NCBI RefSeq assembly: GCF_015476655.1
Contig: NZ_JABFHF010000019.1
Location: 1-64,000, forward strand
Direction of reading: 5' to 3'
Source of the DNA: Aquiflexum lacus
GTDB taxonomy: Bacteria > Bacteroidota > Bacteroidia > Cytophagales > Cyclobacteriaceae
DNA: 64,000 nucleotides
Shown here one piece after another: positions 6,672 to 51,112 of this stretch. Position 1 is the first letter of the stretch. Each line of letters starts with the position of its first letter. The notes under the pieces are model-generated. The model did no database searches and had not been told where the DNA came from. It was given only the letters and a program-made list of their open reading frames with translations. The position numbers and the translations under genes were made by a program.

Positions 6672-6672
6672 T

Positions 6673-31270: not shown

Positions 31271-32308
31271 ATGAAAAAACTTATTCTTGCATCCCTTTAT
31301 TCCCTCTGCTTTGGGACTTTTGCCCAGAATGTCAACTTACAGGTAGTATCCGATGAATTCATCTTTGGGGATAACCGTCCTTTTGCCCAATGCCATGCTT
31401 CCTCCATCGAAAGTCTGGGGGAAGGGAATTATATGATCGTTTGGTTTGCAGGTACCAGAGAGAAGGATGATGATGTAGGGATTTGGTTTTCAAAAGGCAG
31501 TCCCGGCAGTTGGTCTCCTCCAAAAATGTTGGTCAAAGTAAGGGAAGATGCCCATTGGAATCCTGTACTTTTTAATGCCCCGGACGGGAGGCTTCATCTG
31601 TATTTCAAAGTGGGAAAGGAAATCGATGATTGGGAAACCTGGGTAATGTATTCTGAAGATAGGGGGAGCACTTGGACTCAGGCTGTAGAGTTAGTCGAAG
31701 GGGACAAGGGCGGCAGAGGTCCAGTAAGAAACCATATGCTGGTTCTTTCTGACGGAACATGGCTAGCACCTGCCTCAATCGAAAAAAACAGAGTATGGAA
31801 TGCTTTTGTGGACCGGTCCGAAGATGGCGGAAGTACTTGGCTGAATACAGAAACGCTGATTTTGGACCGTAGTATTATTACAGGAGAGGGAGTAATACAA
31901 CCAGCATTATGGGAATCTAAACCTGGACATATTCATATGCTGCTGAGAACCTCAGCTGGAAGAATCGGGAGAAGTGACTCCAAGGACAATGGATTTACAT
32001 GGTCACCAGTAGAATTGACCGATCTTCCCAATAATAACAGCGGCATAGATTTGGTCAAAATCCAAGATGAGACCATTGCTTTGGTCTATAATCCGGTCGG
32101 TGAAAATTGGGGCAAGCGCTATCCCATGCAATTGGCCATTTCATTTGACAATGGTAATTCTTGGCCCATCAAAGAAGTGATTGAATCCGGGGAAGGTAAC
32201 AATGAGTTTTCTTATCCTTCAATCATTTATGAAGATGGCCATTTGATTTTTTGCTATACTTGGAACCGGGAAAAAATTAAGTTTGTGAAAATCAAAGTAT
32301 CATTCTAA
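31271..32308 (+). CDS. Sialidase-like BNR/Asp-box protein
   Basis: A secreted protein of 345 residues with a signal peptide cut near FAQ (residue 19). It has at least four Asp-boxes (SEDRGSTW, SEDGGSTW, SKDNGFTW, SFDNGNSW), marking a six-bladed sialidase-type propeller. The early block CHASSIESLGEGNYMIVWFA matches the BNR_2 sialidase-like family, many members of which act on sugars other than sialic acid. Substrate unknown. It stands alone, with no sialic-acid catabolic genes nearby. Confidence 0.85.
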   Translation: MKKLILASLYSLCFGTFAQNVNLQVVSDEFIFGDNRPFAQCHASSIESLGEGNYMIVWFAGTREKDDDVGIWFSKGSPGSWSPPKMLVKVREDAHWNPVLFNAPDGRLHLYFKVGKEIDDWETWVMYSEDRGSTWTQAVELVEGDKGGRGPVRNHMLVLSDGTWLAPASIEKNRVWNAFVDRSEDGGSTWLNTETLILDRSIITGEGVIQPALWESKPGHIHMLLRTSAGRIGRSDSKDNGFTWSPVELTDLPNNNSGIDLVKIQDETIALVYNPVGENWGKRYPMQLAISFDNGNSWPIKEVIESGEGNNEFSYPSIIYEDGHLIFCYTWNREKIKFVKIKVSF

Positions 32309-34345: not shown

Positions 34346-35695
34346 CTATTCCACTTTTGCAAGATTTTCATTTTTTGTAGAAACCCTGCCCAGAAGATGA
34401 TGGCCTACCTTTTGGCCTTTGGTTGCGCCATTGACAATCGCAGGCATGTAATGGATTCCTCCATACAATCTACTGATTGCTGCTTCATCTGCTGCCTGTC
34501 TAAATGAATCAAATTCCCTTACTGGCAGTCCATAAGCCACTTCAGTCGAATCTACAAAATGAAATGGCTCGCCAAAAAGTTTGGTCAAAGTTTCAGCAGC
34601 GGCATTGGAAATAACAGAATGTCCACTTGTATATTCAGGAAAAGGTGGCGTTTGTAAAAGCGGCAACCACTCCTCGTCAATGTATTTGTTGATGTATGTC
34701 TCAGGTCTGATCAAAACACTTCTGTATTTCTCATCCCAACAGGCAATAAAACCATCGAACAATGCAACTCCTGTCATTGCCAAAGTTTCGGCTGTACCCT
34801 TCCAGTCCTGACCAGCTGTTTTGGAGGATATGGCCGCAATCCCCATCCAGTGTCCACCGGGAGTGATTTTCTTTTCAGCAAACATGACGTGGCCCTTGAC
34901 ATTAACTTTATAAGGATTGCAATCCCAAAACATGGCAATGTCTTTTTGCTCAGCAGAAAGATTTTGGGTAGTCACAAAAACTTCCTCGGCTTCTTTAAAA
35001 AACTGACTGCTTTTATCACTTGAAAATTCAGTGGGGGGAGCAGATTTGTATTGTCCTGCTGAGTCCAGTGCAAATGACCTGATTTTATTCCAATGAGGCT
35101 CTATACCTTCCATATAAGCGGGGGGGGTAGGCTGCCAGGTATTTGGAGCATTGCTCACCGTGTATTTTTCAAAAGAGCGGCTTTGGTGGTAATTGTCTTT
35201 TTTACTGTATGCAATCACATGGTCCGCTACTTCCTCACCCAATTGAACAGACCGATTGAAAACTTTCTTGGGAATTCCTTTTGACTTGATTTCTTTCAAT
35301 GCCTCCTCCTTATGAGTATCCATCTTTTCCTCAGAAAAAATCAATGCAGTGGCCACCTTATAATAGGCGATCAAAGAGGCCAAAGGAAAATAAATTTCAC
35401 CTTCAGTGTCAAATTCAGTGGATTCAAAACCATTCAATTGACCCATCAGACTCTTGTATTGGGGATCAGCCAAAACTGCTACTTCGTAGGCGGCTATGGA
35501 TGGATAGGCATAAATCCTACTGGCTACAGGAGGGGAAAAAATATCGTGAATGATGACATTGGTCAATCTGATTTGAGCAGCAGTTTGGTAGGAACCATCT
35601 GTTATGATTTCCTGATAATCACTATTGTCCTGACAGGCTACAATACCAGCAATGAGTGATAAAGTGAAAAGAAATTTTGGGAAGATATTTTTCAT
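34346..35695 (-). CDS. Vanadium-haloperoxidase-like (PAP2 fold) lipoprotein
   Basis: A protein of 449 residues. The signal peptide ends in AGIVAC, a lipobox. The three oxyanion-binding blocks of the vanadium-haloperoxidase/PAP2 superfamily are readable: KYRSVLIRP (Lys-x6-Arg-Pro), YTSGHS, and SRLYGGIHYMPA (Ser-Arg-x5-His). The Asp expected three residues after that His is Ala here, so the site is not a textbook haloperoxidase. It could be a haloperoxidase, a phosphatase or a binder. It is the last gene of the co-directional FG-GAP/SusCD locus, 159 nt after the last FG-GAP gene. The ATG before KNIFPKF is preferred to one seven codons upstream. Confidence 0.85.
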   Translation of the reverse strand: MKNIFPKFLFTLSLIAGIVACQDNSDYQEIITDGSYQTAAQIRLTNVIIHDIFSPPVASRIYAYPSIAAYEVAVLADPQYKSLMGQLNGFESTEFDTEGEIYFPLASLIAYYKVATALIFSEEKMDTHKEEALKEIKSKGIPKKVFNRSVQLGEEVADHVIAYSKKDNYHQSRSFEKYTVSNAPNTWQPTPPAYMEGIEPHWNKIRSFALDSAGQYKSAPPTEFSSDKSSQFFKEAEEVFVTTQNLSAEQKDIAMFWDCNPYKVNVKGHVMFAEKKITPGGHWMGIAAISSKTAGQDWKGTAETLAMTGVALFDGFIACWDEKYRSVLIRPETYINKYIDEEWLPLLQTPPFPEYTSGHSVISNAAAETLTKLFGEPFHFVDSTEVAYGLPVREFDSFRQAADEAAISRLYGGIHYMPAIVNGATKGQKVGHHLLGRVSTKNENLAKVE

Positions 35696-35854
35696 TATGA
35701 GGCAATTCTTATACAATAGGACTTCAAATTTAACAATTCTCTTTTTCTAAGACAAAAAGGGAATGTTTTGTGTGGGTTTTGGACATCAAATCTAATTATT
35801 AATACGTGATTCCAAAGTTTTTGTACAGGCAAATAAGCTGATTTTTAGCAGGTT

Positions 35855-38800
35855 TTATGGATTGATTTTCAGAAAAACAGGTTTTCCATTGTTTCTGACA
35901 GCTATGAGGTGTGGGGTATCACCAATGTTGATGCGCTCCACTTTTCTAAATTCCCCCCAATAGTCAATGGCAGGAATACCAATAGGTAAATTTTCCCAAG
36001 TTCCATTCGACCATTTCAGCAAGGTCAGCGGTTGCGCCCCGTTTTTCCCCAAGTCATTTCTGAATCCATAAAAATTACCTACACCCAAAAGATACTGATT
36101 ACCATCTTTGCCTGTGAAAGATTTGAAATCTTTGATGGGAGCAAATTGGGCTTCTATAGGAAAGGGATCAAATTCAAAAGCACCACTTCCAGAATTCCTC
36201 AATACACCCGATCTCAATGTTGTCACTTGATATTTATTGGCCTGTTTCAATTGATTGTCATCAAATAGATCTTTCGGGGACTTTAATTTGGAGTAAGAAA
36301 CATAAGAGTCGTGTTTTCTTTTTAGTGCCGGTATCTGTTTGATCAAATCATCCCTGCTTGCGAATGGTACCAATTTCCCATCCATATAATGAAAAATCAG
36401 GGGGTCAGTCTGTCCATTTCCATCAAAATCATGATGGTATAACCATACAGGTTGGTCCTGACTTGCTTTCAGTTTGGAGTTCAATCCCAAGTTACCCAAG
36501 ACGATATCCTGAAGTCCATTGCCATCAACATCTATAACTGACATTCCGAAATACCAACCTGCCTGATCCAAACCTGAAATATTTAACCTTTCAAATTTTT
36601 GCTGGTCATTTAAGGAATATGCCATCACGGGCGTCCATTCTCCGGACAGCAACAGCTCCTTTTGACCATTACCGGTGATATCTGCCCAAAGGGCATTTTG
36701 GATCATACCCGGCCTCAATTCCTCTCCAAAGTAACTTTGAGTGGCATCTTGGAATTTACCATCTCCATCATTGAGCAGTAAATAACTTCTCGGAAGGGCA
36801 CCGTAATTTCCTGTAACCACCGATGCGCCAACAAAAATATCCGGATTCCCATCCCCATTGACATCATGCACTGCTACAGTTGAGGTATTCTCTCCAAAGG
36901 GAGGAAGTGAATTCATGGAAAAAACCAGATTTCCCTTTCCGTCATTCAAAAACAACCTATCGAAATTGTAAATCTCCCCTCTCCCATATTCATTTCCCCC
37001 ACTGCCAACATATAGATCCAAATAACCATCCTGATTGAAGTCTTCCATCACGGCGACAACATCTTCCGCTGTTTTCAATTGTTCAAAGAAGGGGTTTTCA
37101 ACTTTATAAAAACCACCATTCACTTCTTGAAAAAACAAAGCACTTGGCTGACCATTTGCGCCACCCAAATAGATATCATCCAACCCATCTCCATTGATAT
37201 CCCCGACAGCCAAAGCCGGTCCTTCTGTTCCATACCTTCTTGGCATCAGGTATTCCCTTCTAAATTCATCTATGATGGACCTTTCTTCATGCTCCCAATC
37301 CAAAGAAATATCAGCAATTTCCAATACAGACTCTATTTTTTGAATAGGTAGTCTACTTTCATTTCCTTGACCTTTTACAAGCAAATGTCTTTGGTCAAGA
37401 TCTAGATTTTGAAAGACCTCAATTTCTCTTGAATTCCATGATACAAAGACAGAGTCAATTTTTTCTGTATTTCCCAATCCAAAAGTCAAAGTGGTAGAAG
37501 TTCCGGACTGAAAGCCTCTAGAGGTACTCAAGGTTTGATAATAAGTCTCCCCATTTGCAAAAACCCATACTTGGGCACCTATTCCAAAAACATTTTTGAC
37601 ATCTGATCTGAGATCTACTTGAACAAACTGGTTAGAGGTCATTTCTGAGGAATTGTTTCTGTACACAAATGCTTCTTGGTCAGTATTGTTGACCACCAAG
37701 TCCAAATCCCCATCATTGTCCAGGTCCGCATAAGCAGACCCGTTGGAATAGGAAAGCTGATCCAATCCCCAAAGCTTGGAAGCGTTGGTAAACTTTAACC
37801 CGCCATCATTTTTGTATGTGAAGTTTGAAAGTTTGACAGTGGGTAACATGTCGATCTGTTGCTTCTCTTTTTCCTTATCGGTCAATCCCGGTGTGAGTTC
37901 CTGACTGTATTGGACAAAATCAAGGTCATTGGGTCTCTTGACAATGCCATTGGTCACATGGATATCCTTTTTGCCATCATTGTCCATGTCAAAAATCAAT
38001 GGTGACCAACTCCAGTCTGTAGCAAAGGTTTCTGTCAACAATCCGATTTCACTGAACCTCCCGTCACCCCTATTGAGTTGGAGGTGATTTCGCACATATT
38101 GATCTCCATATCCCAATTTCTGTTTGATATCATATACCTCCTGCTTGTCTTCACCGAGTGATTTCATCCATATCCCCGGGTCTTCCGGTAACATGTCTGT
38201 GGTGAAAATATCAGGTAGTCCGTCATTGTTGATATCTGCAATGTCATTGCCCATGCTGTACCGGCTGGTGTTTTCAATGAAATCCTTCAGGGATTCTTTA
38301 AATGTACCATCAGCTTGGTTGATATACAGGTAATCATCTTCCGTGAAATCATTGGACACATAAATATCCAGCCAACCATCGCCATTCACGTCCGCAACGC
38401 CAACACCCAACCCAAAACCCAAACTGCTGGATAAGATTCCTGCTTCATCGGTTACTTCAATCATCCTTTCTTCTCCTTCCGTGATGAGGCTTTTGTACAA
38501 TTTATCCCCACCTTTTTCGTCCTGATTGGTGAATTTGGTATCGGCATGGGAAAAGACTTCTGGTTTTTTGATCGAATGGTTTAAGAGGTAAAGGTCTAAA
38601 TCTCCGTCTTGGTCATAGTCAAAAAACACGGCATGTGTGGAGAAGCCAATAAAATCAATCCCGTATTCTTCAGCCTTTTCACTGAATGTCAGGTCACCAT
38701 TGTTGATGTATAATTTGTTCTTTCCGGAGATACCTTTGTAATCCCCTACTTGGCAAACATAAATATCCAACAAGCCGTCCCCATTCATATCCACCATCGT

Positions 38801-39217
38801 GACACCTGTAGACCAGCCTCCATCACCGGTAACTTTGGCAGCAACGGTAATATCTTCAAACCGGAAATCCCCTTTGTTCAAATAGAGTTTGTTTTCTCCC
38901 TGATTGGAGGTGAAATAGATATCCACCAATCCATCGTTATTGATATCGCCCAAAGCCACACCACCTCCATTATAAAAATACAGGTATTCCAGAATATTCA
39001 TTTCTTCCGTAGAAGTCAGGTCATTCCTGAAATCAATACCGGTTTGATCGGAGGGCAGAAGGGTGAAAAGAGTTTCTTCTTGGGGTTTGGAGCAATAGAT
39101 TAGATTAAAAATTAAGAATGAAAGCAGTCCAATTCCAACAAATTCCGAAAATTTGCTATTTAGTTTCTCATTTAACTCAGCTTTGCGTCTTTGCGCCTTT
39201 GTGGGAAAATTCTTCAT
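35855..39217 (-). CDS. FG-GAP/VCBS plus ASPIC/UnbV lipoprotein (paralogue C)
   Basis: About 1120 residues. It holds two sets of FG-GAP/VCBS blades with calcium loops of the form DxNxDGxxD (DINNDGLVDIY, DMNGDGLLDIY, DYDQDGDLDLY and many more), separated by an ASPIC/UnbV domain (GIGAQVWVFANGE, then SRGFQSGTSTTLTFGLG). The start is fixed by an ATGA overlap with the upstream paralogue's stop. That start lies inside a dispersed repeat, so the first 15 or so residues (MKNFPTKAQRRKAEL) are repeat-derived. They precede a hydrophobic stretch ending LIYC, a likely lipobox. A large surface lipoprotein of unknown ligand. Confidence 0.9.
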   Translation of the reverse strand: MKNFPTKAQRRKAELNEKLNSKFSEFVGIGLLSFLIFNLIYCSKPQEETLFTLLPSDQTGIDFRNDLTSTEEMNILEYLYFYNGGGVALGDINNDGLVDIYFTSNQGENKLYLNKGDFRFEDITVAAKVTGDGGWSTGVTMVDMNGDGLLDIYVCQVGDYKGISGKNKLYINNGDLTFSEKAEEYGIDFIGFSTHAVFFDYDQDGDLDLYLLNHSIKKPEVFSHADTKFTNQDEKGGDKLYKSLITEGEERMIEVTDEAGILSSSLGFGLGVGVADVNGDGWLDIYVSNDFTEDDYLYINQADGTFKESLKDFIENTSRYSMGNDIADINNDGLPDIFTTDMLPEDPGIWMKSLGEDKQEVYDIKQKLGYGDQYVRNHLQLNRGDGRFSEIGLLTETFATDWSWSPLIFDMDNDGKKDIHVTNGIVKRPNDLDFVQYSQELTPGLTDKEKEKQQIDMLPTVKLSNFTYKNDGGLKFTNASKLWGLDQLSYSNGSAYADLDNDGDLDLVVNNTDQEAFVYRNNSSEMTSNQFVQVDLRSDVKNVFGIGAQVWVFANGETYYQTLSTSRGFQSGTSTTLTFGLGNTEKIDSVFVSWNSREIEVFQNLDLDQRHLLVKGQGNESRLPIQKIESVLEIADISLDWEHEERSIIDEFRREYLMPRRYGTEGPALAVGDINGDGLDDIYLGGANGQPSALFFQEVNGGFYKVENPFFEQLKTAEDVVAVMEDFNQDGYLDLYVGSGGNEYGRGEIYNFDRLFLNDGKGNLVFSMNSLPPFGENTSTVAVHDVNGDGNPDIFVGASVVTGNYGALPRSYLLLNDGDGKFQDATQSYFGEELRPGMIQNALWADITGNGQKELLLSGEWTPVMAYSLNDQQKFERLNISGLDQAGWYFGMSVIDVDGNGLQDIVLGNLGLNSKLKASQDQPVWLYHHDFDGNGQTDPLIFHYMDGKLVPFASRDDLIKQIPALKRKHDSYVSYSKLKSPKDLFDDNQLKQANKYQVTTLRSGVLRNSGSGAFEFDPFPIEAQFAPIKDFKSFTGKDGNQYLLGVGNFYGFRNDLGKNGAQPLTLLKWSNGTWENLPIGIPAIDYWGEFRKVERINIGDTPHLIAVRNNGKPVFLKINP
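39181..39205 (-). repeat. Dispersed CTTTGCG-type repeat inside a gene start
   Basis: CTTTGCGTCTTTGCG followed by CCTTTGTGGG, the same family as 1990-2007 and 54997-55017. Here its reverse complement encodes the FPTKAQRRKA residues at the N-terminus of the FG-GAP paralogue that begins at 39217. Confidence 0.75.
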
Positions 39218-42200
39218 TTCTTTATCTCCCAAAACTCCACATTTTCTCCATTTTTAACCACCATCAGGATTTTTTGTCCTTCTCTATCAATGACATGGAG
39301 GTCTCGGATATCACCGTTCAGCTTTAGACCATGGTCTCTGTTGTGCCAATATTCGAATGTTCCATCCCCTTTTCCCAAAAGCACCTCACCATATGATCCA
39401 TCATATTGTCCTACTTCCGGCTTTGCTCCTTTGAGATTACCACCCATTATCAGGTCTTCAATGCCATCTCCATTGAGGTCCGTGACCACAATACTATACA
39501 TCCATGACCTTTGGGACATTCTTGGTAATTCGATAGGCTTAAATCTACCGCTGCCTTCATTGAGCAATACCGTTGAAACCAAATTGTTTACTTCCTGAAT
39601 AACAGCCTTTTCAAGTTCGGCAGGACTGAAGATATCCTCCATGGTTTGGTTATTGTAGGCACTGTATTTTAAATAACGTTTCTTGATTGAGGGCAACTGT
39701 GCTTCCAATTGATGTTTCAATGTGAAAGGAACATGCTTATCCCCTACCTTTTGTACAAAGACATGCTCAACCGATCCATTTTGATCAAAATCATTGACAA
39801 ACATTTTGATGGGCTTTTCAATGGATGCCTTAAACCTTGTATTCAACCCATGATTGCCCAATATAAAATCGGGTTTACCATCCCCATTGAAATCACCTAC
39901 AGCAATAGACTGATACCATCCTTTCAATTCTTCCATCTCGGACATGGCTATCTTTTCAAGCTTTCCACCTGTATTTCTGAGAAAGGTCGGTGCCATCCAT
40001 TCACCTACCAAAACAATGTCTTCTTTACCATCTCCATCATAATCCACCACAGCTGCATCCGTCACCAAACCGATTTCCTTTAATTCCGGGGCATATTGGG
40101 AGGTCCCATCTGTAAAGTTTCCTTGGCCGTCATTGATCAAAACGAAACTGTTTGCATTTACACCATATAAAAAAGGAATAACCCTGGAGCCTACAAAAAT
40201 ATCCAAGGCTCCGTCTCGGTTGATATCCAAGATTTTCACCACAGAGGTACTGTTTCGAAAACTTACCAAACCTGAATTCTCGGCTTTGGTGAAATTACCC
40301 TTGCCATCGTTGAAGTAAAGTCTATCTGCCAGGTCCAAAGCACCAAATCCTGATTCATTTCCACCCGAGGTGACAAATAGATCCAAATGACCATCACCAT
40401 TGGCATCAAAAAACACCGCATCAGTATCTTCGGAGATTTTGTCAGCTTCAAATACACTTTGGGAAGAAGCTTGGTAATTGCCGTTTCTACTCTGAATAAA
40501 TAATTGCCCTGCAAAGCCTTTGGCCCCTCCAATATAAACATCTTCCAAACCATCACCATTGACATCTCCAAAAGCTGCCTTTGGCCCTTCGGTTGACAGC
40601 ATGTGATACGTCAACCGATCTCTATCAAAATCAACCATGGTATTTTCCTGATGACGGTATTCCAGCAGTGGTTTGATTTTGGTGAATGTAGGTGCTGGTA
40701 AATTTGGAAAAAATTCAAAATCAGCTGGGGAGTCACCTGCCTCAGCCCAATTCAAAGTCAACATCTGATCGGGGGGCACATCTGTAAGAACGCTTAACTG
40801 ACCATCAGGCCACCTTACCTGGACCTGATCGACTTTTTCAATATTCCCCAATCCGAAGTTGAGTCTGGAGTCCACAGAAGACTGAAATCCCCTATTGGGC
40901 ATATTTTCCTGATAGAATATCTGATCGCCTACTAACAATCTCACTTGTGTGCCAATAGCGGAAGTGTTATTACCCTTGCCTATCAATTCTATCTTCAAGA
41001 AACGGTTTTCAGGATGGAATTCCCTGCTGCGGTTTTTGAAAATCAAAACCTCTTTGTTGACATTGTTGACGACAAGGTCCAAAGCACCGTCATTATTAAG
41101 GTCTCCATAAGCGGAACCATTGGAATGGATGGGGTCACCCATCCCCCATTCGTGGACCACGTTTTCAAACACCAGGTCCCCTTTGTTCTTATAGGCATAA
41201 TTAGAAACCGGATTGATGGGCATCGGGTCAATCAATGCCTTGTAATTGACGCCACTTTGGGAAATGATCTTCTTTTTGGTCTCATCATTGTCAATGAAAT
41301 TCAGATAATCCAGATCAGTGAGGTCTTGGTAAATACCATTGGCCACAAAAATATCTTTCAGACCATCATTGTCCATATCAAACATCAAAGCCGCCCAACT
41401 CCAATCCGTCGCCTCAACATTGGCCAAACGACCCATATCGCTGAAGGTACCATCTCCGTTGTTGACATGGAGCATGTTGCGGGTATATTGGTAGTGGTAT
41501 CCATGTTCCACATTGAACTGAAACTTGTCCCAACTTTCGAAAGTGGTGATCTGCTTGAGCCTCTCGGATGGTTCAGGAAGCATTTCAGTCACAAAAATAT
41601 CCAAGTGCCCATTGTTGTTGATATCCGCTATATCCGCCCCCATGGATGCTGCGGACGTTGATCTCATATAATCAGTCAGGCTTTCGCTAAATGTTCCGTC
41701 CTGATTGTTGATGTATAGGTAATCCCTTTCGAAGAAATCATTGGAAATAAAAATATCCATCCAACCATCCTGATTGACATCTCCTACTGTAATTCCAAGA
41801 CCGAAGCCAATGACACTTCCATAAATCCCGGCTTCCTCAGAAATATCGGTAAACTTATCACCGTCATTTCTGAAAAACTTATCACCGCCAACCGGATCTC
41901 TTTTAGGCCTTTCATTCTGCATTTTGTTGAAACTGCCAATGGCCTGATAACTGTTGTTGAGTAGGTACACATCTAGGTCTCCGTCATTGTCAAAATCAAA
42001 AAAAACAGCATGCGTGGAATATCCTTCGTCGGCTAGACCATAGGCTTCTGCCATTTCGGTAAATGTCCCATCACCGTTATTAATGAAAAGTTCGTTCTGT
42101 TTGTTGTCACCTTGGATATCACCGGAATTACAGACATAGATATCCAACAGCCCATCACCATTAACATCTGCCATGGCTACTCCTGTACTCCATGCACGGG

Positions 42201-42540
42201 TTCCCGCGACTCCTGCTTCTTCGGTTACATCTCTGAATTTGAAATCACCCTCATTGATATATAACTTGTTTTTACCAAGGTTTGCAGTCAGGTACATATC
42301 CAAAAGTCCGTCATTATTGACATCCCCCAATGCTACGCCCCCACCATTATAGTAATTTCTATACGTGAAGATATTGAAGCTCTCGTCAAATTGGAGGTCG
42401 TTTCTAAAAGTCACTCCTGATTCAGCAGATGAGACTATCTGAAATAAAGTATCCTTTTTCTCAATTTCTTTTTGCTGACAGGATACCAACAAAACTGAAC
42501 CAAGGAGGAAAATTAATAGACTTATGCTAAGCTTCATCAT
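39214..42540 (-). CDS. FG-GAP/VCBS plus ASPIC/UnbV lipoprotein (paralogue B)
   Basis: A protein of 1108 residues with a clean lipoprotein signal (LLVSC, about Cys21). It has the same plan as its neighbours: N-terminal FG-GAP blades (VALGDVNNDGLLDMYLTANL), a middle ASPIC/UnbV domain (SAIGTQVRLLVGDQIFYQ, then FGLGNIEKVDQVQVRWPDG), then a second set of FG-GAP blades (AAFGDVNGDGLEDVYIGGA). The calcium loops are complete, which suggests a functional propeller. It overlaps the small lipoprotein gene upstream by 14 nt (or 11 nt from the second ATG) and paralogue C downstream by 4 nt, so the set is translationally coupled. Confidence 0.92.
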   Translation of the reverse strand: MMKLSISLLIFLLGSVLLVSCQQKEIEKKDTLFQIVSSAESGVTFRNDLQFDESFNIFTYRNYYNGGGVALGDVNNDGLLDMYLTANLGKNKLYINEGDFKFRDVTEEAGVAGTRAWSTGVAMADVNGDGLLDIYVCNSGDIQGDNKQNELFINNGDGTFTEMAEAYGLADEGYSTHAVFFDFDNDGDLDVYLLNNSYQAIGSFNKMQNERPKRDPVGGDKFFRNDGDKFTDISEEAGIYGSVIGFGLGITVGDVNQDGWMDIFISNDFFERDYLYINNQDGTFSESLTDYMRSTSAASMGADIADINNNGHLDIFVTEMLPEPSERLKQITTFESWDKFQFNVEHGYHYQYTRNMLHVNNGDGTFSDMGRLANVEATDWSWAALMFDMDNDGLKDIFVANGIYQDLTDLDYLNFIDNDETKKKIISQSGVNYKALIDPMPINPVSNYAYKNKGDLVFENVVHEWGMGDPIHSNGSAYGDLNNDGALDLVVNNVNKEVLIFKNRSREFHPENRFLKIELIGKGNNTSAIGTQVRLLVGDQIFYQENMPNRGFQSSVDSRLNFGLGNIEKVDQVQVRWPDGQLSVLTDVPPDQMLTLNWAEAGDSPADFEFFPNLPAPTFTKIKPLLEYRHQENTMVDFDRDRLTYHMLSTEGPKAAFGDVNGDGLEDVYIGGAKGFAGQLFIQSRNGNYQASSQSVFEADKISEDTDAVFFDANGDGHLDLFVTSGGNESGFGALDLADRLYFNDGKGNFTKAENSGLVSFRNSTSVVKILDINRDGALDIFVGSRVIPFLYGVNANSFVLINDGQGNFTDGTSQYAPELKEIGLVTDAAVVDYDGDGKEDIVLVGEWMAPTFLRNTGGKLEKIAMSEMEELKGWYQSIAVGDFNGDGKPDFILGNHGLNTRFKASIEKPIKMFVNDFDQNGSVEHVFVQKVGDKHVPFTLKHQLEAQLPSIKKRYLKYSAYNNQTMEDIFSPAELEKAVIQEVNNLVSTVLLNEGSGRFKPIELPRMSQRSWMYSIVVTDLNGDGIEDLIMGGNLKGAKPEVGQYDGSYGEVLLGKGDGTFEYWHNRDHGLKLNGDIRDLHVIDREGQKILMVVKNGENVEFWEIKK

Positions 42541-43111
42541 TTTGTTCGATCATATCTTTTAGGTCTTTGATCCGTAAATCAAGGATTTCAACCCTTACTG
42601 TTTTAATATCTTTTTTGAATACCCTGACATGTCTGTTACCATCTATTTTTACTTGAGCAGTTACAGTTTTAGCTTTGTTGCTGACTGGAAAAAATCCTGT
42701 ACCAAACCAATTCTCCAACAATCCTACAGTATCTTCCATTAGCTTATCATTGGAGTAGGCATCATTGGTCGGAAACCAATCTGTGTAGGTCAGTTCAATG
42801 GGCATATAATACAACTTGTTTTCTTCAAATTTAGGATAGAAATGCATATTTACTTTCTTTCCCGAGGGTAGTTCAGGATGATATAAAATCTGCAAATAGT
42901 GCGCTCCATTGGTCAGTATTCCATTTTTGTTATGTTCCCAACAGGTTCCATAAAAGGTTTTTCTATCCATTCCAAACTGGATATCCAGAAAAAGATCTTC
43001 AAATACCTTTCCCGAGGCCAATTCCGTTTCTTTCACTTTGTCATATTCCGTTTGAGGCTGACAAGCTAATGCAACACAGAGGAAAATTATAAAATATTGT
43101 ATTTTAGGCAT
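42527..43111 (-). CDS. Small lipoprotein of unknown function
   Basis: A protein of 194 residues; the signal peptide ends in VALAC (lipobox). I do not recognise the family. The mature part has an aromatic-rich centre (NMHFYPKFEENKLYYMPIEL) and a basic, helical C-terminus (LRIKDLKDMIEQ). It is placed between two giant FG-GAP paralogues and overlaps the next one by 14 nt, so it is likely a dedicated partner of that system. Confidence 0.8.
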   Translation of the reverse strand: MPKIQYFIIFLCVALACQPQTEYDKVKETELASGKVFEDLFLDIQFGMDRKTFYGTCWEHNKNGILTNGAHYLQILYHPELPSGKKVNMHFYPKFEENKLYYMPIELTYTDWFPTNDAYSNDKLMEDTVGLLENWFGTGFFPVSNKAKTVTAQVKIDGNRHVRVFKKDIKTVRVEILDLRIKDLKDMIEQNDEA

Positions 43112-43197
43112 TGTTTATTTTAATTTCAGCCAATTTTTTGTACCAATAAGCTTAATAGTTGAAACTTCAAAGTGCATGGACTTAAATTGATTTGGCT

Positions 43198-46100
43198 TCA
43201 TTTCTTTTCATCAATTTCAAACAAAGCTGGTTCTTTGTCATTTCTCCCCACTACAATTTGATTTCCTTTATTTGTCTTTACAATTTTAATACTTCTGACT
43301 TCTCCTCTGACAAAGAACCCTGATTCCTTTGCAGATAACACATCAAACCCTCCTTTTGTATTGGATACCAAATGCCATCCAAAACTACCCATGTTTATTC
43401 CCAATTCGGGCTTTATTTTACTTTGATTTCCTCCAAACAACATATGTAGCTTTCCTGATTCATCTTTGAATGAATGAATGGCATAAACCGGGCTGTGCTG
43501 GAGTTCGTTAGGTAATTGAGACTTGGCAAAAGTACCATTTCCTTGATTGATATACAGACTTGTTTCCAAAGTATGTACGTTCAAAATCAAATTTCTTTTC
43601 AGTATTTCATCAAGAAATAAATCTGATAGCTTTTTATCCTTATAATCATCATAAGTCAACAACTGTTTTCTCAATCCGGGCAATTGTTTGAGAAGTGTAG
43701 ATTTCAAAACCAAAGGATAAGCATGGTCACCCTCATAAATGGTCATAATCTGCTCAATGCTCCCATTCTGGTCAAAATCATTGACATGCAATTGAAGTGG
43801 TCTTTTATCAGTAGCAAACAAACGGGTATTTAATCCCATATTTCCTGCCAGTATATCCGGAAATCCATCACCATTGACATCTGTGACATGAAGTGTATTC
43901 CAAAGGCCGCCCGTATTTTCAAAGCCAAATGAAGCAGAAACATCTGAATATTTACCTTCAAAAAATTTAAATACTTTGATACCCATCCAATCCCCCAATA
44001 GCACAATCTCTTCCTTCCCATCCCCATCAAGATCACCTATCCAAGATTCTCTAGTCATTCCCAAATCTTTGAAGCCGGGCGCTAGTTGAGATGTCTTGTC
44101 TACAAAAACTGCATCTCCCTGATTTTCAAAAATCCGAATATCAGTGGGTATTCCATAAGCAAAAGGAATTGTCCTAGTCCCAACCAATAGGTCTAAATTA
44201 CCATCACCGTTGTGGTCAAAAGCCCGGACAAAAGAAGAACTTTCGAACCTAACTGGGATTGTATTTTCTGATTTTTTGAATTTTCCTTTTCCATCATTGA
44301 GATAAAGTCTGTCCTGGTAGTTTGTGTTTTTATTACCAAACTCAAGACTGCCACTCAATGCATATAAATCCAAATCCCCATCTCCATCTGCATCAAAAAA
44401 CAAACCTCCAATATCTTCAGACAACTGTTCGCCATCAAAAGATTGGGACTTTTGAAATGAACCATCCATTCTTTGCGTCCAAACAGAAGAAGCTTGACCC
44501 CTAGCCCCCGGTAAAAACAGGTCATCCAAACCATCGCCGTTCACATCTCCTACCTCAATCACAGGACCCTCATTGGAAGCCATGTGGAAACGCAGCCTAT
44601 CCCTGTCAAAATCAACAAAATCACTTTCCTCATGTTTCCATGAAATTAAGTCTTGAAGCTCAGTGAAATATTTTTTCCCGATTTCCTTTTCTCTTTTCCA
44701 TTCCAAACCAACTGAAGCGGGATCAAGTTGAATTAGCTGATCCACATCCACATCCTGAAGTTTGGTCGTTTTGCCATTTGGCCATAAAACCAAAATTGAA
44801 TCCAATTTACTGATTTCGCCCAAACCAAAATGCAGCTTATGATCCACCGAAGACATATAACCCTTAACAGGATTGTGTTCGGCGAAAAACAGTTGATCAC
44901 CTGCATACAAGGTGACCTGGGTCCCAAACTGCCCTTTCAGGTCAAACTGCAAAAAATGGTAGCCATTGATTTCACGGCTATTGTTTTTGAATATAAAAAC
45001 CTCCCCCTTCAGGTTGTTGACAACTAGGTCCAAATCTCCGTCATTATCCAAATCGGCGTAAGCCGCACCGGTAGAGAAAGTCAACTGTTCCATACCCATT
45101 TGTGCAGCAATATTTTCAAACTTAAAATCACCCAGATTTTTAAACAGAAAATTCTGCTGGGGCACAGAAGGAAATTCATCGATCATTTTGGTCAGCAAAA
45201 CACTGTCCTTACGGAATTGGGCAATCAGATTCTGATTGTTGACATAATAATCCACATAGTCAAAATCTGTCAAATCCTTGACGATTCCGTTTGCCACAAA
45301 AATGTCCTTTAATCCATCATTGTCAGCATCGAAGATCAATGCTCCCCAACTCCAATCGGTGGCATGAACACCCGACTGCCTTGCAACATCAACAAAATAA
45401 ACCTGATCTGAATTAGGCTGAAAACCCAAATTTCTTTGCAAAGTATTTCTTGTAAATTGATGAAAATATCCGGTATTGACATTCGCCTGGTATTTATCCC
45501 ATTCTTCAAAAGGTGTTTTGGTTTTGACCCTTTCCAATGTAGCAGGTAACATTTCTGTCACAAAAATATCCTGCCAACCATTGTTGTTGAGATCAGCAAT
45601 GTCTGCGCCCATAGAGCCCATGCTGATTTCATTCAACATGTTCTCCAGAGATTCTGTGAAGGTCCCGTCTCCATTATTGATGTAGAGGTAATCTTTTTCA
45701 AAAAAATCATTGGATACATATAGGTCAGGCCAACCATCCTTATTGATATCTGCGACTGTTACACCCAAACCATATCCGATCGCCGAACCATATATACCTG
45801 CGGCTTCACTGATATCCACAAACATTCCATCGTCATTTCTGTAAAGTTTATTTCCTCCAAATGGATCTCTGACATCTCTTTGTCCTGTTCTCAGGTCATT
45901 GATACCCACCGACCTTGCTGAATTATTGAGCAGATACATATCCAAGTCACCATCCTTGTCAAAATCAAAAAAGACCGCATGCTGAGAAAGTCCCTCATCT
46001 GCAATCCCATATTCCTTTGCCATTTCGGTAAAAGTCAGGTCGCCGTTGTTGATGAAAAGTTCATTATACCTTTGTTCACCTCCCAATGGACCGGATTTAC

Positions 46101-46545
46101 AGATATAAATATCCAACAAACCATCTCCATTGACATCCGCCATGCTGACACCGGTAGACCAAATTCCAGGAACTGCCAAACCAGCTTTCTCGGTAATATC
46201 TTCGAATTGGAAATTTCCTTTGTTGAGATAAAGTCTGTTTTCGGACTGATTTCCTGCAAGAAAAATATCAACAAGTCCATCATTATTGATGTCTCCAAGA
46301 GCTACCCCTGCTCCATTATAAAAATTCCGGAAAGTATAAGGGTTGAACTGCTCATTATATTCTAGATCATTTCTGAAATCAACACCTGTCCGAGTCTTAT
46401 CCATCAACTCGAAAAGCTTTTTATCCTCCTGTTGTTTTTTGGAACAGGAAAAGATGATCAAACCTAAAATGAATATAACGGTAAATGGGCGTTTCAAGGT
46501 ATGGAGTTGATTCTGATATCTATTTATGAATCGTAATATTAACAA
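43198..46545 (-). CDS. FG-GAP/VCBS plus ASPIC/UnbV lipoprotein (paralogue A)
   Basis: A protein of 1115 residues from the first ATG. The hydrophobic signal ends LIIFSC (lipobox). A TTG at 46497, just before KRPFTVIFILGL, would give a more usual signal-peptide length, so the start is uncertain. Domain plan as in paralogues B and C: FG-GAP blades (VALGDINNDGLVDIFLAGN), ASPIC/UnbV (FGTQVTLYAGDQLFF, then HFGLGEISKLDSILVLWPNG), then FG-GAP blades (IEVGDVNGDGLDDLFLPGAR). It is the first FG-GAP gene after the SusD terminator, only 29 nt downstream of it, so either read-through or a very close promoter is needed. Confidence 0.92.
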   Translation of the reverse strand: MLILRFINRYQNQLHTLKRPFTVIFILGLIIFSCSKKQQEDKKLFELMDKTRTGVDFRNDLEYNEQFNPYTFRNFYNGAGVALGDINNDGLVDIFLAGNQSENRLYLNKGNFQFEDITEKAGLAVPGIWSTGVSMADVNGDGLLDIYICKSGPLGGEQRYNELFINNGDLTFTEMAKEYGIADEGLSQHAVFFDFDKDGDLDMYLLNNSARSVGINDLRTGQRDVRDPFGGNKLYRNDDGMFVDISEAAGIYGSAIGYGLGVTVADINKDGWPDLYVSNDFFEKDYLYINNGDGTFTESLENMLNEISMGSMGADIADLNNNGWQDIFVTEMLPATLERVKTKTPFEEWDKYQANVNTGYFHQFTRNTLQRNLGFQPNSDQVYFVDVARQSGVHATDWSWGALIFDADNDGLKDIFVANGIVKDLTDFDYVDYYVNNQNLIAQFRKDSVLLTKMIDEFPSVPQQNFLFKNLGDFKFENIAAQMGMEQLTFSTGAAYADLDNDGDLDLVVNNLKGEVFIFKNNSREINGYHFLQFDLKGQFGTQVTLYAGDQLFFAEHNPVKGYMSSVDHKLHFGLGEISKLDSILVLWPNGKTTKLQDVDVDQLIQLDPASVGLEWKREKEIGKKYFTELQDLISWKHEESDFVDFDRDRLRFHMASNEGPVIEVGDVNGDGLDDLFLPGARGQASSVWTQRMDGSFQKSQSFDGEQLSEDIGGLFFDADGDGDLDLYALSGSLEFGNKNTNYQDRLYLNDGKGKFKKSENTIPVRFESSSFVRAFDHNGDGNLDLLVGTRTIPFAYGIPTDIRIFENQGDAVFVDKTSQLAPGFKDLGMTRESWIGDLDGDGKEEIVLLGDWMGIKVFKFFEGKYSDVSASFGFENTGGLWNTLHVTDVNGDGFPDILAGNMGLNTRLFATDKRPLQLHVNDFDQNGSIEQIMTIYEGDHAYPLVLKSTLLKQLPGLRKQLLTYDDYKDKKLSDLFLDEILKRNLILNVHTLETSLYINQGNGTFAKSQLPNELQHSPVYAIHSFKDESGKLHMLFGGNQSKIKPELGINMGSFGWHLVSNTKGGFDVLSAKESGFFVRGEVRSIKIVKTNKGNQIVVGRNDKEPALFEIDEKK

Positions 46546-46573
46546 TTTGACAGAACAGAAGGGTATTAAATCA

Positions 46574-46602
46574 AAAAGAAGTGCACAATGTGCACTTCTT
46601 TT
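46574..46602 (-). terminator. Rho-independent terminator of susC-susD
   Basis: A perfect 13-14-bp stem (46574-46587 with 46589-46602) around AAT. On the minus strand it leads into TTTTTGATTT. It lies 25 nt after the susD stop and only 29 nt before the paralogue A start, so it may attenuate rather than fully separate the two parts of the locus. Confidence 0.85.
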
Positions 46603-46627
46603 ATTGATTATTTTTAAAATTATATAA

Positions 46628-48121
46628 TTAATAACCAGGATTTTGAGTCAAGTTTGGATTGGCCAAAAGTTGTGCTTCAGGTACTGGGAAAAGATTTCTG
46701 AAAGGTTCAGAAGGACTTTTCTCCCACCAAGCGTCATTAAACCTACCAAATCGGATCAAATCAGATCTTCTATGACCTTCAGCAAACATTTCTCTTCCCC
46801 TTTCTGCCAACAATACGTCCGCATCAATTGAGGTAAGTGGAGCTACATTGGCTCTTTCGCGTACTTGATTGACAAAGCTTAGGGCTTCAGCAGTTTCTCC
46901 TAACCTCCAACTTGCTTCGGCTCTCATCAAAAGCACATCAGCAAATCTGAAAATTGGGAAATCATTATTCAAATTAGGACCTGAACCCAATGGAATTTCA
47001 AATTTATTAACCCTTGTCCCTGCCTGTCTAAATGCATTCGGAGCCAATTCATTGATATTTGGCGTGAAATTTATTTCCGGTCCATCAGGATCACCGGCTT
47101 CCGCGGAAGCATCGATAATCGGGGTAACTCCATCAGAACGGAATTGAGGACCTTCTCTTAAACTGTTTTTCCTCACATCACCATCTTCGTAACTGTTATA
47201 GAATTCTTCCAATGCAGCATAGCCGTTCCATGGCTGCTCCTGCAATTCGAAAGTCTGCTGAGTGCTATAATGGAAAGTCATCTGATGAATGTTAAATCCT
47301 CCTGCGTTATTGGCATCATAAGGAAGTGTAAACATGTTTTCGGGAGAATTGGAATTACTGTTGGCAAAATTTGCAAAGAAGTTAGGAGCCAAGCTATAAG
47401 GTCCCTCATTGATAATCACATCAAGGGCTGCTTTTGCTTCCGCCCATCTTGGCTGACCAATGTATACCTCAGCATTGAGATACAATTTGGCCAGAATCAT
47501 ATGGGCAGTCCAATAATTCAAGTTTGTCCTGGTATTGTTTCTGGTCAATAGATCTGCGTTTTCAAGAATACTGCTCTCAATGAAAGCAAAAACTTCTGCC
47601 CTGCTATTTGTCGGTGGATTTGGCGCCACGTCTGTCTCTACGACTATTGGCACATTACCAAAGTTATCAATGAGCCAAAGGTATCCTAAAGCTCTCAAAA
47701 CCTTTAATTCAGCAACCAATTCCTCAAGATCAGGAAACTGAATAATCAAAAGGTTAGCTTCGGCTACCACACCAAAAGCATACTGCCAAGCTCCATTGTA
47801 AGGGCCATCAGTATTGATCCAAGCATGTCTGTGTGCTCTCAGCCATATGCCGCCATCTTCCCAGTCAGCACCCTTTTGTGGTATCGACAATTCATCTGAA
47901 GATACTTCTATTGCACTGTAGAGACCACCATGACCTCCCCAATTGCCCACAACCGCACTATAAGCTGATTGCTTTAACACTTCTATCAGTTCCGGCGTAA
48001 CATTGGCATCCAATTGTTCTTGGGTGATTCCCGAAAGAACATCTTGCTCCAGTTCCCAGCATGACCCCATCGTCAATGCGACGAGGCCTCCAACACATAA
48101 TGATTTAATTGATCGTAACAT
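46628..48121 (-). CDS. SusD/RagB-type nutrient-binding outer-membrane lipoprotein
   Basis: A protein of 497 residues; the signal peptide ends in LTMGSC (Cys21). The SusD start ITQEQLDANVTPEL, the middle VLRALGYLWLIDNFGNVPIV and the C-terminal FRFADVLLMRAEASWRLG and FAEGHRRSDLIRFGRF are hallmark RagB/SusD segments. It lies 18 nt after susC. In such pairs SusD caps the SusC barrel and captures the ligand at the cell surface. There are no glycoside hydrolases nearby, so the ligand need not be a glycan. Confidence 0.95.
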   Translation of the reverse strand: MLRSIKSLCVGGLVALTMGSCWELEQDVLSGITQEQLDANVTPELIEVLKQSAYSAVVGNWGGHGGLYSAIEVSSDELSIPQKGADWEDGGIWLRAHRHAWINTDGPYNGAWQYAFGVVAEANLLIIQFPDLEELVAELKVLRALGYLWLIDNFGNVPIVVETDVAPNPPTNSRAEVFAFIESSILENADLLTRNNTRTNLNYWTAHMILAKLYLNAEVYIGQPRWAEAKAALDVIINEGPYSLAPNFFANFANSNSNSPENMFTLPYDANNAGGFNIHQMTFHYSTQQTFELQEQPWNGYAALEEFYNSYEDGDVRKNSLREGPQFRSDGVTPIIDASAEAGDPDGPEINFTPNINELAPNAFRQAGTRVNKFEIPLGSGPNLNNDFPIFRFADVLLMRAEASWRLGETAEALSFVNQVRERANVAPLTSIDADVLLAERGREMFAEGHRRSDLIRFGRFNDAWWEKSPSEPFRNLFPVPEAQLLANPNLTQNPGY

Positions 48122-48139
48122 ATATTATTTGAGTTTATG

Positions 48140-51112
48140 TTATTTAAAGGTTAATGTTAATCCCATTGTCCAGATTCTTGGCAAGAAGTAAGTGTTTCTT
48201 CTTTCAATACCTGGAGCAAGTGGATTATCGCCATCTTGCCATCTTACTTCAGGATCGACACCGGAGAATTGGGTAATTGTAAATAGATTTTGAACACCTC
48301 CATATACCCTAAGGTTATTTATACTGGCAGATCCTGTTGGAATATTATAGCCAATCTGAAGGTTATCCAATCTTGCAAAATCACCCCTTTCCAAATAAAG
48401 ATCTGAGAAAGAAGGCGTAGATGTAACAAGCGGAGCGGTCGGAGTGTTTTTGGTCAACACAGAATTCCATGTAAGAGATGCTCCATCGGCGTTTTCATAG
48501 AACCCTCTGAAGGAGTTGTAAATCAAATGTCCCCAACTGCCTCTCAGCAAGAAATTCAAGTCCCAATTGCCATACACAAAGGTGTTGGAGAATCCAAAAT
48601 CACCTGTTGGCAAAGCACTTCCCAATCTTTCAAATTCTCCTGGAGTTTCGCCTGAAAGAATATATTCTCCTCCATCCGTTAACCCCAGTAATCTCGGACC
48701 ATAGAAATCACCGATTCTTTCTCCTTCTCTATTCCAAATCATCGGGTTGTCATTCTGACCTGGGGAACCTGGCACACCCTGTCTAATTTCACCAATACTC
48801 AAGCTTCCTGCACCTAGATCCGAAATTCTGGTCCTTTTGTAAATGGTGAAGTTCAAGGTTGGAGACCAAGAAACAGGTCCTAACTTGACATCATTGACAG
48901 TAGCCAAAAATTCAAAACCAGCACTGGATAGTGAGGCAACATTCGCCCAAACATTATCTGCAGTGTATGGTCTTCCTGGCTCAACTGCACTTGGGAATCC
49001 CCTACCTACTGTTACATTGAAAATCAAATCAGAAATATTCCTTTGGTAGTAATCCATCTGACCAGTCACTCTACCATTAAAAAGGCCATAATCCAAACCA
49101 ACTGTAAATTCCTGAGTTGTTTCCCATTGCAATTGAGGATTAGGATTGCTCAATCTTCTTGGACCAACAAACACTGAACCAATAGGATCATCAGGATTTA
49201 ATGGAATTCTATTGCCATTGCCAAAGATTCCCAAAGCCAAAGTTGGAGAAGGTGGCAACTGACCCACTATACCAAACGAAGCCCTAGGCTTAAACTGACT
49301 GAATATACCCATATCAAAAATCTGCGTAAAGTCAGCACCTGCACTGACTGCAGGAAAATATCCTGTTTGGTTATCTCTACCGAATCCTGAATAGGTCTCA
49401 GCTCTTAATGAAGCTGATAAGAAATAGGTGTTGCTGTAGTTGAAGTTCGCTCTTCCAAAGAAAGAATTCAATACCGCTCTGGAAGCAAAAGAGTCCATTC
49501 CTGTTCCCGGGCCAAACCTTAATCCACCTGCTCCAAGATTATTTGGGCCTAGGTCAAATAGAAACCTAGCGGTGGAAGCATTCATACCCCTTTCAGCAAA
49601 AGTTTGGGTTTCACCACCCAATAAGAAAGTGAAGTTCATCCTATCGAAGATTTCGTCTTCAAACCTGATGGTTCCGTTCCAGATGGATTGTGTCCTGTCA
49701 AACATGTTCTGTCCAGCCTGACCACTTCGACCAAATCCTGTCTGAAAATCCTGACGGGAAAAAAACTGAGTACTCAATACAGTCAGTTTATCCTGAGAAA
49801 ACTGGGATGCAACCGTGATTTTATCTGAAATATCATACTCTACTCTATAGGAATACAGGGCAGCCCTAACTTCCGTTGTAAATTTTTGTTGGTTGATCAA
49901 TGCCACCGGATTGTAGAAATCAAACAACGGTCTTTGGAAATATCCTCCGAAATTTCTTTCTGCTTCTTCACCTGACTCCCTGATAGGGGCAGTGGGATTG
50001 AAAACCGTGGCATATCTTACCGCCTCACTATTGACATCTTGGGCCTCAGTATCTGTGTAGGAAAGAGAAAGGTTCATTCTTAACCTATTATTCAGGGCAC
50101 CATGATTCATATTAAATCTTGTGTTCAAAGTTTCCCTATTGGTTCCTTTGATGATACCATCGTTGTTACGATAGTTGACAGAAGCCAAATAAGAAGTATT
50201 TTCAAATCCTCCAGTTACCGAAGCATTGACAGTACCATTATAAGCAGTCTGAAGTATTTCGTCTCTCCAATCAGTCTTTGATCCATAATCCACGCCACCT
50301 CTTTCTACAAATTGCTCAGGGGAAAGGATAGGGATAAGATTAGTAGCTACATCAGCAGAGCCAAAAGAATTGATCGTCACATTAGAGACACCTTTTCTGG
50401 AAGATCCTCTCTTGGTAGTGATCAGGATTACACCTGCCGCTCCCCTTGTACCATATATGGCAGCAGCAGAGGCATCTTTCAAAACATCAAAAGTCTCAAT
50501 GTCATTTGGATCGACTGCATCAATAGAGGCTCCAATCACGCCATCCAATACAATCAGTGGAGACTGAGTAGCGCCAAAAGATGATATACCTCTCAATCTG
50601 ACCGTTGGTTGCGAATTAGGATTACCACCTGGACGGGTCACAGATAGACCTGCAACTTTTCCCTGCAACAATTGAGTTGGGTTGGTGAAGTTACCTCGGT
50701 TAAATTGTTCGGACCCAACAGAAGCCACCGCAGAAGTGATTTCCTTTTTATCCTGAGTACCGTAACCAATCACAACTGATTCCTGAAGACTCATGATGTC
50801 TTCTTCTAACTCTACATTAAAAACCGATTGATTTCCAATTGGTAATTCTTGGGGAGTAAAGCCCACGAACGAGATCACCAAGGTTTCATCACCTGGCTGA
50901 ACGTTTAGTCTGAATTGACCATCCAGATCAGTAGTCGTACCTCTTGTAGTACCTTTGATCAGAACAGTTACACCTGGCAAAGGATCTTTAAGCGTGGCAT
51001 CGAGGATTGTTCCTGACACCTCCCGACCTTGCGCATTTGCAGTTGCCATACTGATGATCATCAGCGTAGCAATCATCAAAAATGCTTTCTTTTTAAGTAA
51101 ATAATTTCTCAT
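48140..51112 (-). CDS. SusC/RagA-type TonB-dependent outer-membrane receptor
   Basis: A protein of 990 residues. A signal peptide (cut near ANAQ) is followed by a carboxypeptidase-regulatory-like domain (VSGTILDATLKDPLPGVTVL). Then come the TonB plug with SusC signatures (VIGYGTQDKKE, LLQGKVAGLSVTRPGG, LRGISSF, DASAAAIYGTRGAAGVILIT) and a long beta-barrel ending in an aromatic-type strand. It imports a ligand using TonB energy. An open frame extends 31 codons upstream, but the ATG before RNYLLKKKAFL starts a proper signal peptide. It is the first gene of the locus. Confidence 0.95.
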   Translation of the reverse strand: MRNYLLKKKAFLMIATLMIISMATANAQGREVSGTILDATLKDPLPGVTVLIKGTTRGTTTDLDGQFRLNVQPGDETLVISFVGFTPQELPIGNQSVFNVELEEDIMSLQESVVIGYGTQDKKEITSAVASVGSEQFNRGNFTNPTQLLQGKVAGLSVTRPGGNPNSQPTVRLRGISSFGATQSPLIVLDGVIGASIDAVDPNDIETFDVLKDASAAAIYGTRGAAGVILITTKRGSSRKGVSNVTINSFGSADVATNLIPILSPEQFVERGGVDYGSKTDWRDEILQTAYNGTVNASVTGGFENTSYLASVNYRNNDGIIKGTNRETLNTRFNMNHGALNNRLRMNLSLSYTDTEAQDVNSEAVRYATVFNPTAPIRESGEEAERNFGGYFQRPLFDFYNPVALINQQKFTTEVRAALYSYRVEYDISDKITVASQFSQDKLTVLSTQFFSRQDFQTGFGRSGQAGQNMFDRTQSIWNGTIRFEDEIFDRMNFTFLLGGETQTFAERGMNASTARFLFDLGPNNLGAGGLRFGPGTGMDSFASRAVLNSFFGRANFNYSNTYFLSASLRAETYSGFGRDNQTGYFPAVSAGADFTQIFDMGIFSQFKPRASFGIVGQLPPSPTLALGIFGNGNRIPLNPDDPIGSVFVGPRRLSNPNPQLQWETTQEFTVGLDYGLFNGRVTGQMDYYQRNISDLIFNVTVGRGFPSAVEPGRPYTADNVWANVASLSSAGFEFLATVNDVKLGPVSWSPTLNFTIYKRTRISDLGAGSLSIGEIRQGVPGSPGQNDNPMIWNREGERIGDFYGPRLLGLTDGGEYILSGETPGEFERLGSALPTGDFGFSNTFVYGNWDLNFLLRGSWGHLIYNSFRGFYENADGASLTWNSVLTKNTPTAPLVTSTPSFSDLYLERGDFARLDNLQIGYNIPTGSASINNLRVYGGVQNLFTITQFSGVDPEVRWQDGDNPLAPGIERRNTYFLPRIWTMGLTLTFK

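Follow-up and report, generated by a model that had tools for sequence, protein, structure and literature searches.

Positions 34346 to 51112 of a 64,000-nucleotide (nt) stretch of Aquiflexum lacus DNA (NZ_JABFHF010000019.1, positions 1 to 64,000; the whole stretch is termed the window) hold seven minus-strand genes that, judged by comparison with relatives, are a conserved, closely spaced same-strand unit. Together they probably build a cell-surface machine with an import channel, giant propeller proteins and a likely iodine-oxidising enzyme. Sequence and genome comparison established the genes, their families, their linkage and a two-class tendency among the giants, and a structure model established one fold. 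To our knowledge, the bacterial vanadium iodoperoxidase has a solved structure and no settled physiological role, and giant surface lipoproteins of about 1,100 residues have so far been known by domain names only. The linkage, which extends across several families, suggests surface import as a concrete setting for iodoperoxidases and identifies partner proteins, and the giant lipoprotein family gains a structural identity and two recurring classes. Recurrence of the cluster in many relatives, including close kin of the source of the crystallised enzyme, leads to a testable idea of the purpose of such enzymes. No description of this cluster was found in the open-licence PMC literature, a scope outside which the enzyme's original paper lies. 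Loci (L), genomes (G), contigs (C) and families (f) bear our own labels.

Genes and proteins of the locus

The genome comprises 5.94 Mb in 110 contigs, and three of its six ASPIC matches fall at this locus. From 51112 down to 34346 the genes are as follows.

48140..51112, minus strand: SusC/RagA-type TonB-dependent outer-membrane receptor (ATG at 51112; TIGR04056 and TIGR04057 signature)
46628..48121, minus strand: SusD/RagB-type surface lipoprotein (PF07980 SusD_RagB; matches to SusD in the PDB)
43198..46545, minus strand: FG1, giant FG-GAP/ASPIC lipoprotein of class A (domains and trees)
42527..43111, minus strand: LP194, orphan lipoprotein of 194 residues, between FG1 and FG2
39214..42540, minus strand: FG2, giant FG-GAP/ASPIC lipoprotein of class A (domains, trees and predicted structure)
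35855..39217, minus strand: FG3, giant FG-GAP/ASPIC lipoprotein of class B, adjoining the peroxidase gene (domains and trees)
34346..35695, minus strand: PAP2-fold lipoprotein of the vanadium haloperoxidase type, iodoperoxidase-like (homology to 4CIT and vanadate-site motifs)

Order, strand and junctions of the seven frames are all as described in an earlier note on this DNA: SusC and SusD are separated by an 18-nt gap, LP194 and FG2 overlap by 14 nt, and the FG3 start overlaps the FG2 stop as ATGA. Lipobox-like cysteines could be read in the sequence of every locus protein except SusC. Neither promoter sites (44 against 47.5 in shuffled sequence, using a sigma-70 pattern that may not fit this phylum) nor terminator sites (13 against 14.7) were in excess, and no transcript ends are assigned.

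The last gene encodes the one likely enzyme of the cluster. Its product matched PDB 4CIT along its whole length (469 bits; phmmer 1.1e-139), far above every other solved sequence, with 218 of 439 residues (50%) identical. Entries 4CIT and 4USZ are deposited as vanadium-dependent haloperoxidase and represent the Zobellia galactanivorans enzyme that we take to be the one labelled VIPO1. In the window protein the vanadate-site motifs read KYRSVLIRP, YTSGH and SRLYGGIH (family pattern KxxxxxxRP, SGH, SR...H). An alignment of 136 sequences showed the K, R and P of KxxxxxxRP, the H of SGH, and the R and last H of SR...H to be invariant, with the S of SGH present in 133/136 and the G in 134/136. Full-length homology to a characterised member, together with these motifs, places the protein in the Zobellia iodoperoxidase type, the 4USZ enzyme being the vanadium iodoperoxidase of that species (PMC5064120). 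The haloperoxidase-like PAP2-fold lipoprotein that the earlier note had proposed as the enzyme of the cluster is thereby upheld and sharpened: it is, on sequence grounds, a close relative of a vanadium iodoperoxidase, and halide oxidation is predicted for it.

The giants FG1, FG2 and FG3 have about 1,110 residues each, in which FG-GAP repeats flank a single UnbV_ASPIC domain (approximately residues 528-616; 59-77 bits, cut-off 23.4). The plan previously noted for three paralogues of roughly 1100 residues was recovered by the domain search, and their mutual identity is 40-47% along the length. Each contains 10-12 Dx[DN]xDG motifs (11 in FG1). FG2, the sole giant modelled, was predicted with AlphaFold2 from 47 aligned relatives (mean predicted local distance difference test score (pLDDT) 92.5; predicted template modelling score 0.92). 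Residues 29-615 of the model were superimposed on murine CRTAC1 (cartilage acidic protein 1, PDB 9ETN) with a Z of 39.2 over 472 residues at 2.8 A, and residues 616-1108 form a second propeller, for which the nearest listed folds were LGI1 EPTP (Z 30) and aldos-2-ulose dehydratase (Z 27). All three giants have the FG-GAP propeller and following ASPIC domain of the ASPIC/CRTAC1 family, the CRTAC1 fold itself having been seen in the FG2 model only. As modelled, FG2 would combine an entire CRTAC1 fold with a further propeller, a likeness of fold that carries no functional proof; the bacterial giants differ from CRTAC1 in this added propeller of about 490 residues and in being lipoproteins.

No Pfam or NCBIfam family matched LP194 at E<=0.001. 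Cys17, invariant in the alignment, is its candidate lipobox cysteine, and 61 of the 62 family members found in loci, the window's included, adjoin a giant-type open reading frame. Foldseek gave no match at E<=0.001 to its predicted structure (pLDDT 91.6), and VIA-align returned matches, none of them secure, to 6xtd (Z 6.5), DcrB 6e8a (5.6) and Mog1 5yfg (4.4).

SusC scored 601.9 bits with TIGR04056 (cut-off 368.25) and also contains Plug, barrel and CarboxypepD_reg-like domains, and the adjoining SusD scored 96.7 bits with SusD_RagB (PF07980; cut-off 23.1), which together mark the pair as a putative SusCD importer. As in SusCD (RagAB) utilisation loci, the pair is followed by lipoproteins in one gene run; unlike in those loci, the lipoproteins that accompany it comprise the ASPIC giants, the orphan LP194 and the haloperoxidase. 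The domain search found no carbohydrate-active enzyme or glycan-cleaving domain in the seven proteins, as had been remarked from the translations, and the locus was therefore not classed as a polysaccharide utilisation locus. Outside it, the nearest candidate glycan enzyme is encoded at 31271-32308 on the plus strand, a protein with BNR_2 (sialidase-type) repeats; L019-L023, L026 and L098 likewise have such a protein close to the cluster.

Linkage of the genes in other Bacteroidota

Linkage was assessed in a sample of 148 Bacteroidota genomes, 73 with ASPIC matches and 39 with peroxidase relatives. The 45 genes scoring above 300 bits were taken as close peroxidase relatives, weaker matches falling outside the count. 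An ASPIC gene was located within 10 kb of 34 of these 45, against a chance expectation of about 1.0. Five of the 34 rest on giants read in individual loci, among them a giant cut by a contig end (G114) and a giant separated from the peroxidase by three genes, of which one is on the opposite strand (G123:C94); in G014:C10 the linked giant and peroxidase are on opposite strands. Linkage is thus kept in relatives, where unlinked genes were earlier considered to undo the functional connection. Direct adjacency of giant and peroxidase was recorded in six sample families by hand tally.

ASPIC-seeded loci were hand-chosen among the best matches listed, blind to SusD and peroxidase. Of the 75 examined, 65 contained a giant of 900 residues or more, 8 a shorter ASPIC-type protein and 2 neither. 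The 65 giant-bearing loci contained SusC in 50, SusD in 43 (chance expectation at most 4.7), peroxidase in 24 (expectation 0.6), of which 20 were directly adjacent on the same strand, and LP194 in 6. By these counts giants go with SusCD in general and, since the two are also found without peroxidase, the peroxidase would be a frequent add-on module.

A peroxidase-seeded search of named relatives covered the best 80 of 401 loci, of which 10 have less than 9 kb of upstream DNA and the other 70 were usable. With FG denoting a giant, LP the orphan lipoprotein and VHPO the peroxidase, the order FG-LP-FG-FG-VHPO was exact in 46 of the 70 and interrupted by one extra gene in three more; a giant was directly upstream in the same-strand run in 67 (exceptions L056, L072 and L058). 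Across all adjacent same-strand pairs the giant was upstream of the peroxidase in 101/102. A search for a SusD ortholog covered 28 of the 80 loci; 24 of these genomes have one (54-80% identical), on the peroxidase strand and 10.6-12.5 kb upstream of that gene. The four genomes without it (L037, L073, L082 and L086) have variant loci, and in all of these except L082 the profiles recognised another SusC/SusD pair upstream. Distances between peroxidases and between adjacent giants were correlated (r 0.68; 24 non-redundant loci; 0/2000 permutations). Chance and hitchhiking in close kin were ruled out as explanations: the downstream flanks vary between genera, with GidB following in nearer relatives only, while the core is kept, and the observed linkage is far above chance expectation.

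Sample family f6 (299 genomes), which contains the Zobellia-like genomes and is presumably Flavobacteriaceae, was searched separately, and a peroxidase relative at E<=1e-100 was present in 128 of its genomes. The best of these, 98% identical to the Zobellia enzyme, is in L201 directly behind three giants of 1116, 1119 and 1101 residues, with gaps of 1, 0 and 7 nt (frames taken from the first start codon). Unlike in the window, SusD/SusC in this genome (L201/L202) lie about 10.7 kb past the first giant, and other genes intervene. SusD is beyond one opposite-strand gene in L203, whose enzyme is an 88% relative. The order SusC-SusD-FG-FG-FG-VHPO was found in L212 and L213; L210 and L219 share it except that SusD is followed by one and two opposite-strand genes, respectively. 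A giant was directly beside the peroxidase in 13 of the 19 peroxidase loci of the f6 set; L206, L208, L214 and L215 have none beside it, in L207 the giants are some genes away, and in L220 the peroxidase is divergent from a SusC-SusD-FG-LP-FG cluster.

Further peroxidase genes and neighbours were noted. The A. lacus genome has a second close relative (G000:C17:44201-45406, L096), near SusC/SusD and without a giant, and a third, more distant one of 513 residues on C33 (L097). Two different peroxidase genes in tandem, in the order SusC-SusD-FG-VHPO-VHPO, occur in L073, L083, L086, L087 and L092, and likewise behind a giant in L082, where SusC/SusD were not recognised by the profiles used. A protein of about 300 residues that begins with a hydrophobic segment, and that Pfam classes as GyrI-like in L126, was found in 15 loci (L119, L120, L126, L135, L147, L153, L201, L203, L205, L209-L213 and L219), directly behind the peroxidase in 13; the relative in L201 has 299 residues and starts 7 nt downstream of the peroxidase. 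It may sense a product.

Two classes of giant lipoprotein

A tree was built from all 279 giants of at least 950 residues from 165 loci, many of which are close relatives, so that the counts are not independent. Giants of most loci were split into class A (FG1 and FG2 in the window) and class B (FG3). Both classes were present in 73 of 96 multi-giant loci, and where a peroxidase was also present the giant nearest to it was B in 71 of 83, A in 7 and of neither class in 5. A smaller tree of 70 giants from 30 hand-picked loci had been free of exceptions (A and B together in 24/24 multi-giant loci of its A/B part, B nearest in 21/21), which the larger tree attributes to selection of the loci; a strict pairing rule was therefore rejected: A and B tend to occur together, with B next to the peroxidase, but a number of loci depart from this. 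The exceptions are the following.

Two A and no B: L055, L057, L070, L071, L074 and L079 (with peroxidase); L220 (peroxidase near, divergent); L148 and L169
A single A, the other giant falling in neither class: L101, L104, L108, L125, L198 and L199
B without A: L111, L114, L143 and L144
Neither class: L127, L162, L172 and L204

The six two-A loci with peroxidase are apparent cases of B-giant loss or of a rearranged locus; in each of the six, an upstream SusC is encoded on the opposite strand. Where class B ends varies between trees: the deep pair-mates of L101 and L125 were inside B in two other trees (support 100 and 99), and the 279-giant tree, with its narrower B (support 85), excludes them. 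Many loci have one or two giants, and a candidate rule that three are essential was discarded. Where a third giant is present, it belongs to class A in the window and its near relatives, as well as in G135 from another family; in Zobellia-like genomes and in two members of the family of A. lacus (L126 and L135) it belongs to class B. Window FG3 was matched to the first or third Zobellia-like giant with tree support of 82-89, which does not separate the two matches.

Ligand, proposed mechanism and alternatives

Clues to the ligand were sought among neighbouring genes. Six loci contain relatives of xylose isomerase (L205, named by NCBIfam, and L209, L120, L206, L207 and L208): between SusD and the giants, accompanied by xylulokinase relatives, in L205, L209 and L120 (whose SusD is in adjoining L178), and two genes before the peroxidase in L206-L208. 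Kojibiose hydrolase relatives were found in nine loci (NF053734, 1109 bits in L126), next to the peroxidase on its upstream side in L107, L126 and L135, as a 156-residue piece in L088, and two genes upstream in L185 and L187. A GH116-like protein is directly upstream of the peroxidase in L125, L198 and L199, L105 has GH5, GH30 and GH35, and a sugar-isomerase-like TIM barrel directly follows the peroxidase in 17 loci. In family f22 a PaaA/PaaC relative is one gene on from the giant-peroxidase pair in six loci, in five of which no SusC/SusD was recognised in the stretch examined. A sodium/solute symporter is near the cluster in several relatives; no search aimed at iodide transporters was made. 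Because sugar genes occur in or beside the clusters of relatives, the ligand may well be a glycan or sugar conjugate; the neighbours hint at sugars in some lineages and perhaps at aromatics in another, and none fixes it. The earlier suggestion of a substrate other than an ordinary polysaccharide is unsupported as it was put, given the xylose isomerase, kojibiose hydrolase, GH116-like, GH5, GH30 and GH35 genes of relatives.

Tentatively, and with confidence on the low side, the locus is read as a SusCD importer combined with CRTAC1-like giants and a haloperoxidase that acts on the captured ligand. Next to the SusD lid the giants would form a scaffold, stabilised by calcium and often heteromeric, that would bind the ligand, probably a glycan or sugar-linked aromatic, and hold the peroxidase. 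With hydrogen peroxide and a halide, most likely iodide, the enzyme would oxidise or halogenate the bound ligand, and the product would enter the cell via SusC. A bolder form, in which CRTAC1-like giants dock an iodoperoxidase on SusCD for 'oxidative capture', this being a main physiological setting of Bacteroidota iodoperoxidases and coupling halogen chemistry to outer-membrane import, is considered unlikely. Several observations weigh against capture and oxidation by one complex. Giant loci without peroxidase number 41 of 65, and no giant was located within 10 kb of 11 of the 45 close peroxidase genes. In the 17 loci with SusD, the SusD-peroxidase distance correlation (0.65) was about as high as that of giant and peroxidase (0.66), so that co-inheritance of the locus suffices to explain it. 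Among the 96 multi-giant loci, 15 had A without B, 4 B without A and 4 neither; the nearest giant was not B in 12 of 83, and many conforming loci are close kin, which leaves the counts non-independent. Complex formation, halide, ligand and transport direction are what we infer from the genes, and so is contact between giant, SusD and peroxidase. The vanadate-site residues and active-site chemistry are, moreover, common to PAP2 phosphatases and vanadium haloperoxidases.

The last point would suit a surface phosphatase that dephosphorylates the ligand ahead of SusCD import, as would the PAP2 Pfam match of 22.4 bits, which is under the Pfam cut-off of 27.2; with half of its residues identical along the length to a deposited vanadium-dependent haloperoxidase, the protein is improbable in that role. 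An ordinary glycan-uptake locus whose haloperoxidase is merely protective, using up hydrogen peroxide or making antimicrobial hypohalite while the cell grazes algal or detrital glycans, is somewhat unlikely and, with iodine acquisition, one of the two main rivals. The GH5/GH30/GH35, kojibiose hydrolase, GH116-like and xylose genes of some relatives fit such grazing, as do the giant loci without peroxidase, and one iodoperoxidase of Z. galactanivorans (vIPO3) is up-regulated on Ascophyllum nodosum, its identity with the cluster gene being unstated in the excerpted text of that source (PMC9296495). A generic protector need not follow a giant, yet the giant is upstream in all adjacent same-strand pairs but one, and most close peroxidase relatives (34/45) are linked to an ASPIC gene.

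Unlikely, in our estimate, is iodine acquisition, in which the peroxidase would make hypoiodous acid or I2 from iodide, the giants would hold iodinated organics and SusCD would import them, and which would explain iodine-accumulating Bacteroidota. It draws on kinship with the Zobellia iodoperoxidase, on the Dx[DN]xDG motifs of the window giants, and on Arenibacter sp. C-21, which accumulates iodine in a process requiring glucose, oxygen and calcium, glucose being dispensable given hydrogen peroxide generation (PMC5064120). The genome of this member of the Flavobacteriaceae has at least 5 homologues of 4USZ, whose gene neighbourhood is absent from that account (PMC5064120). The xylose and kojibiose genes of relatives have no obvious role with iodine.

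Two features elsewhere in the window were also recorded. One is a glycerol-type block at 3601-7425 (FAD oxidoreductase with DAO_C, FGGY kinase and MIP channel); relatives of its genes are found in L017, L018 and L088, where they follow the peroxidase at a distance of a few genes. The DNA polymerase III alpha subunit at 24718-29010 has an N-terminal RNase_T exonuclease domain before PHP and is an exonuclease-polymerase fusion.

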